DNA of 64,000 bases. Origin: Deltaproteobacteria bacterium (GTDB lineage Bacteria > Myxococcota_A > Polyangia > Polyangiales > Polyangiaceae). The notes under the pieces are model-generated. The model was given only the letters and a program-made list of their open reading frames with translations, did not search any database and was not told the DNA's origin. Below, one piece after another: positions 36,014 to 36,347 of the stretch; position 1 is the stretch's first letter; each line of letters opens with the position of its first letter. The translations under genes and the position numbers were made by a program. The stretch lies in NCBI GenBank assembly GCA_016218915.1, contig JACRCQ010000042.1:62001-126000 (forward strand), read 5' to 3'.

Positions 36014-36042
36014 TTGCTGAACGGGCGCTCACGTGCCATGAT
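36014..36042 (+). promoter_or_regulatory. Candidate promoter of the structured RNA
   Basis: TTGCTG (36014-36019) and CATGAT (36037-36042) are separated by exactly 17 bases, a sigma70-like pair. It would start RNA near 36047, right where the folded region begins with GGTGCCCGGGAGG. Confidence 0.45.
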
Positions 36043-36046
36043 GACG

Positions 36047-36347
36047 GTGCCCGGGAGGTTTAACCCTGGGATGGTCCTGGCGAGAATGGTCTCGCTCCCG
36101 GGCTAGGACGTGGGCTTCGCGGACTGACCACCGCGGCCCCCACCAAGGAACACCCGCAAAACCTCTCGACAGCAGAATCGTTGAGATCGGCGGGTGCCGG
36201 TTCGCCGGAGGAGGGAAGGCACACATGATAAGTACCTGCAGCCCTAACCCGGAGGTCATGGCATAGCCTTGACGCCGTGCCCCACTCCGGTAGGGGCCGG
36301 GACAGACGAGCCGGGCGTACGGCAATGCGCCCGGCTCGTTCCTTTTT
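36047..36347 (+). ncRNA. Candidate structured RNA (about 300 nt), family unknown
   Basis: No protein frame fits, yet the region folds densely. A closing stem pairs 36047-36054 with 36297-36303 (one bulge). Internal hairpins include GCGAGA/TCTCGC, a GTGGG..CGCGG double stem, CACCCGC/GCGGGTG around TCTCGAC/GTTGAGA, CCGG-TTCG-CCGG, GTCA-GGC-ATA-GCC-TGAC and GCCCC/GGGGC. The segment GCCCGGGAG can also pair perfectly with CTCCCGGGC downstream, giving an alternative fold. A promoter precedes it and a strong terminator ends it. I do not recognise 6S, SRP, RNase P, tmRNA or a known riboswitch. It could be a free RNA, or a leader controlling the FKBP gene about 90 bases on. Confidence 0.6.
36308..36347 (+). 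terminator. Rho-independent terminator after the structured RNA
   Basis: A perfect 10-bp stem (GAGCCGGGCG / CGCCCGGCTC, arms 36308-36317 and 36328-36337) with a 10-base loop, followed by a T-rich tract (TTCCTTTTT). It is the strongest terminator in the window. Confidence 0.85.

Follow-up and report, generated by a model that had tools for sequence, protein, structure and literature searches.

Dual-function small RNAs such as SgrS/SgrT, RNAIII and SR1 are independent transcripts with a small ORF, the peptides of which are conserved and functional. The RNA gene described here resembles them in carrying a small ORF on a transcript predicted to be independent, but its peptide drifts freely (pN/pS 1.15) while the Shine-Dalgarno (SD) sequence, the start and the in-frame stop are kept in 106 of 106 loci. 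It is similar to tmRNA (RF00023) as a structured RNA of ~300 nt with a short reading frame, and differs from it in having no Rfam match and an ORF with its own SD and start codon. 6S RNA is also stand-alone and housekeeping-sized, but the 6S RNA of the window's genome lies elsewhere (the window being the whole stretch of 64,000 nt that was analysed). The leader-peptide attenuators and uORF motifs, for example the ilvB motif (PMC11109978, PMC10272879), share with this locus an SD, a short ORF, alternative stems and a terminator, whereas the present RNA has no fixed downstream gene, no enrichment of codons for a sensed amino acid and a large 5' four-way junction. The Pxr sRNA of Myxococcus, which arose within the suborder Cystobacterineae (PMC11928866), is likewise a stand-alone myxobacterial sRNA, but the present RNA occurs in another class.

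The RNA gene lies within 36014-36347 of the window on the plus strand, and from its sequence and that of its relatives it almost certainly represents a structured RNA of a new class, independent and single-copy, outside the known families. The sequence-only reading had matched it to no recognised class, and the Rfam covariance search agreed with this. No match for the RNA passed the gathering threshold of Rfam 15 in the window and 18 relative loci, where only tRNAs passed, and at E<=10 the region of the RNA gave chance-level matches only. The single Rfam/ARAGORN match in the window was a tRNA-Met(CAT) at 2137-2213 on the minus strand. The known housekeeping RNAs were located separately. The 6S RNA (RF00013), which had been considered as a possible identity, is on contig C72 of this genome and the RNase P RNA (RF00010) on C77, while the RNA described here is on C13. 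Full-length tmRNAs of relatives such as G001 (C426) and G005 (C67) are on contigs other than those bearing the RNA (C62 and C51, respectively), and the window's own genome gave only partial or weak tmRNA matches, none of them at the RNA locus. The RNA was not mentioned in the literature searched on bacterial ncRNA discovery and myxobacterial sRNAs, of which a part was covered. The features of the gene are as follows.

36014..36042, plus strand: promoter, with -35 TTGCTG (36014-36019), a 17-nt spacer and extended -10 TGC-CATGAT (36034-36042); from sequence and relatives
36049..36103, plus strand: 5' four-way junction, with P1 (36049-36055/36097-36103) and P2 (36057-36059/36063-36065)
36067-36071/36075-36079, plus strand: P3, with a conserved UGG loop; covariation
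36080-36084/36091-36095, plus strand: P4; covariation
36110..36143, plus strand: P5 hairpin, GUGGG/CCCAC with inner CGCGG/CCGCG; from the minimum free energy (MFE) fold
36151..36196, plus strand: P6, CACCCGC (36151-36157) with GCGGGUG (36190-36196), enclosing an inner hairpin
36197..36208, plus strand: P7 hairpin, CCGG-UUCG-CCGG, adjoining the SD
36207..36214, plus strand: SD GGAGGAGG, in relatives usually 6-11 nt upstream of the start codon
36225..36266, plus strand: mini-ORF of 13 codons and a stop, MISTCSPNPEVMA; from relatives
36251..36255, plus strand: second GGAGG, within the ORF and 8 nt from its stop (most often 11 nt in relatives)
36285..36290, plus strand: CUCCGG, with the complement CCGGAG both at 36205-36210 (overlapping the SD) and at 36249-36254 (in the ORF)
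36305..36347, plus strand: strong intrinsic terminator from the sequence, with stem 36305-36340 and U tract (TTTTT) to 36347

The -35/-10 pair that had been read from the sequence is present with its 17-base spacing, the -10 box CATGAT occupying 36037-36042. A generic promoter scan did not pick up this promoter. Of 61 loci, 33 have an extended -10 (TGnYAnnnT) that precedes P3 by a roughly constant distance, as against 3.7 in shuffles, although this and the other shuffle-based counts overstate independence because the compared genomes are related; the extended -10 was not seen in family f5. The start is placed near 36049 from the position of the -10 box and the first conserved helix beginning there, which gives a predicted transcript of ~300 nt. 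The terminator that had been proposed at the end of the structure was also found, and a strong terminator within 350 nt after the ORF stop occurs in 72 of 106 relatives, as compared with 2 of 101 mononucleotide shuffles. An independent unit with its own promoter and terminator is therefore the most likely arrangement. The region 36014-36347 folds more stably than chance (z = -3.2), and so does the presumed transcript 36049-36347 (z = -3.8), with none of 200 shuffles as stable.

P1, P3 and P4 appear in the MFE fold of 36049-36347. The four-way junction, described as P1, 2 nt, P2, P3, P4 and 1 nt, reached a score of 45 or above at 45 of the 75 family loci, as compared with about 1 in 75 for dinucleotide shuffles; a few of these matches are oddly placed and possibly due to chance. 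The window's own genome is outside the 45, its P2 being reduced to 3 bp and missed by the strict descriptor. In P3 and P4, both partners vary in 10 of 11 pairs, a score that none of 500 shuffles reached, in a sequence-only MAFFT alignment of 24 loci delimited by eye and folding. P6 (CACCC/GGGUG) has compensatory changes at all five tested pairs among 74 sequences. In the same sequences 97.9% of the cells of P6 and P7 are paired (0 of 500 shuffles) in an alignment fitted to the covariance model and so biased to structure; sliding it by 1-3 columns leaves only 25-50% paired. All the cells of P7 are paired, with both sides changed in two of its four pairs. Covariation thus supports P3, P4 and P6, and P7 less, and P5-like hairpins were seen in relatives by eye. 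These compensatory changes and the occurrence of the RNA in relatives strongly support the earlier proposal of a structured RNA of ~300 nt. The long closing stem proposed with it did not hold. Its 5' arm, from 36033 on, includes the -10 box and lies upstream of the likely start, so the stem cannot form in the presumed transcript, and it is missing from a sister species; the closed domain is the smaller four-way junction at 36049-36103. A pairing of the P3 loop with ACC of the ORF was considered by eye and dropped.

An order-wide pattern search found the RNA in 13 genomes, all of one family, and the core covariance model R1 then matched 75 of 108 genomes of that family, once in each. Retrained models reached other families and orders, with matches in 170 of 318 genomes and 79 of 152 genera of the class, which we take from the names of the records to be Polyangia of Myxococcota. 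Named carriers include Sorangium cellulosum So ce26, So0157-2 and So ceGT47, Byssovorax and Labilithrix. Roughly half of the class genomes gave no match, which may reflect absence, divergence or incomplete assemblies. There is one copy per genome throughout the class except in one genome with two; these copies (G104, C337:2859-2945 and C440:6969-7076) may come from a mixed assembly. In a sample of 379 genomes from the phylum, 60 of 61 matches belonged to the class and the other was weak. Matches outside the class were set aside as apparent chance, namely those in G409, G416 and G291 from other families of the phylum and L172, L173, L185, L186 and L193 from other records. A credible copy was seen in a single genome from a different class of the phylum (G239 of family f39; L139, C440:28836-28943), while 12 other f39 genomes were without it; this copy may be ancient, or may result from horizontal transfer or misbinning.

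The sequence-only reading had seen no plausible protein in this interval. This is correct for ordinary proteins, but the SD and the 13-codon ORF at 36225-36266, the most conserved part, were overlooked. In five relatives from a DNA search, the SD and short ORF at constant spacing formed the best-conserved block. All 106 loci have an in-frame start and stop, with lengths of 12-23 codons (13-16 in 89%). The starts are ATG in 102 loci and GTG in four, a count partly selected for because the model that chose the loci includes the SD and early ORF, and the stops, which are outside that model, are TAG in 54, TGA in 33 and TAA in 19. The mini-ORF of family f3 (L157, L147) has a GTG start and a greater length (21-23 codons), with GGAGG still ~11-14 nt before the stop. 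GGAGG is the most frequent 5-mer in the mini-ORFs, exact in 62% of 92 distinct ORFs against 4.4% of shuffles, and in relatives it most often ends 11 nt before the stop. At this distance it forms an SD-like site that precedes the last sense codon by ~8 nt, near the 9-10 nt of the real SD and within normal initiation spacing. Such spacing is right for holding a terminating ribosome; alternatively, the motif may have been retained because it pairs within the RNA or binds a protein.

The strong SD and the strict ORF and stop in all 106 loci would also be expected if the RNA were mainly the mRNA of a functional peptide of 13-16 amino acids, a signal or regulator, with the structure serving as 5' UTR control, and a pattern M-[QH]-S-T-x-G-x-x-x-E-[GV] does recur in several families. 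The peptides themselves speak against this. The 106 loci hold 89 distinct peptides, and pN/pS is ~1.15 among close pairs (61 non-independent pairs, in which structure can also depress synonymous change). Where residues recur, a single codon is favoured contrary to the usage of the genome, AGT making up 77 of 92 Ser codons in the first five codons of the mini-ORFs and 4.3% of Ser codons in neighbouring genes, and in G128 and G164 the GGAGG is kept in a different frame. The pN/pS and the AGT usage argue that the peptide is not what is kept, and we consider the peptide-mRNA explanation unlikely. The constraint is apparently at the nucleotide level, with translation, and not its product, kept by evolution.

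A small RNA that acts in trans by base-pairing with mRNAs, or that titrates an RNA-binding protein at GGA motifs, with the mini-ORF incidental or stabilising, would fit a stand-alone gene with its own promoter and terminator, variable neighbours and repeated GGA motifs. An incidental ORF would hardly keep its start, stop and length in 106 of 106 diverged loci, and this explanation too appears improbable.

As had been read from the sequence, alternative pairing is possible. CUCCGG at 36285-36290 can pair with CCGGAG at the SD or in the ORF, and it can instead sit in the loop of GCCCC (36279-36283) paired with GGGGC (36293-36297). CUCCGG occurs downstream of the ORF in 23 of 101 relatives against 9.2 in shuffles, a modest excess among related loci, and CCUCC in 38 against 21.9, with no enrichment of CCUCC upstream of the ORF. 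Good pairing between the 3' half of the ORF and the bases that follow its stop codon is seen in families f5, f10 and f12, with compensatory changes in this stem, for example GAACUC/GAGUUC vs GGACUC/GAGUCC. As a universal stem it was rejected, only 14 of 98 loci reaching p<=0.05; it is strong in these three families and a few others.

The alternative pairings, the short ORF and the terminator resemble attenuators, and the earlier reading had hinted at a riboswitch, that is, at a cis-acting leader of a downstream gene. In much of the Polyangiaceae the RNA lies between a gene for a ~180-aa lipoprotein and one for a ~600-aa membrane protein, the latter (c1) being the downstream gene that such a leader would serve. 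The gene for the secreted lipoprotein (c0, 43-44 members) has the orientation of the RNA and stops shortly before it, at ~250-350 nt upstream of the SD in L089, L076, L097, L088 and ~40 other loci, and c1 (29 members) often follows the RNA. In the genus of the window and two others the RNA is between a presenilin-like gene and an FKBP gene, and in other families unrelated genes adjoin it, the downstream gene differing or having the opposite orientation at many loci. A role as leader of the FKBP gene, the presenilin-like gene or any fixed gene was therefore rejected, as the neighbours vary within families and are wholly different between them. A cis-acting leader is thus very improbable, and an independent gene most likely. 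A chance fold with an accidental terminator, for which the GC-rich genome and the ~one terminator-like site expected per 1.5 kb by chance might speak, can be practically dismissed given the z of -3.8, the covariation and the class-wide single-copy conservation, and it is refuted by the relatives.

We give about an even chance to the reading that we prefer, in which an independent RNA acts via ribosomes that load on a mini-ORF and pause at its end, the peptide being dispensable. From the unit, the structure, the SD, the ORF and the second GGAGG that the sequence gives, we infer a mechanism in which the mini-ORF is translated, the ribosome pauses at the stop and the pairing changes in response to the ribosome. 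Ribosomes would start on the mini-ORF and run through its 13-16 codons, and the second GGAGG would pair with 16S rRNA and so hold the ribosome at the stop codon. This loading and parking would set which pairing partner the 3' part of the RNA takes (the SD, the ORF or itself), the 3' part being a CUCCGG-type anti-SD in the window's genome and the stem between the ORF and its downstream sequence in f5, f10 and f12. The RNA might then act in trans, or through its stability, as an RNA dependent on translation status. A bolder form, which we put forward only tentatively, is that of a class-wide, housekeeping-like RNA that captures and parks a ribosome, its mini-ORF translated for the act of translation and its built-in SD holding the terminating ribosome.

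If true, such ribosome parking would set the RNA apart, among ribosome-interacting RNAs, from tmRNA and from all leaders. As an example of a reading frame in which length, start and stop are retained but apparently not the product, the mini-ORF is unusually clean. The RNA adds a well-supported family to a class of soil bacteria known for huge genomes and secondary metabolites, in which few sRNAs have been described.
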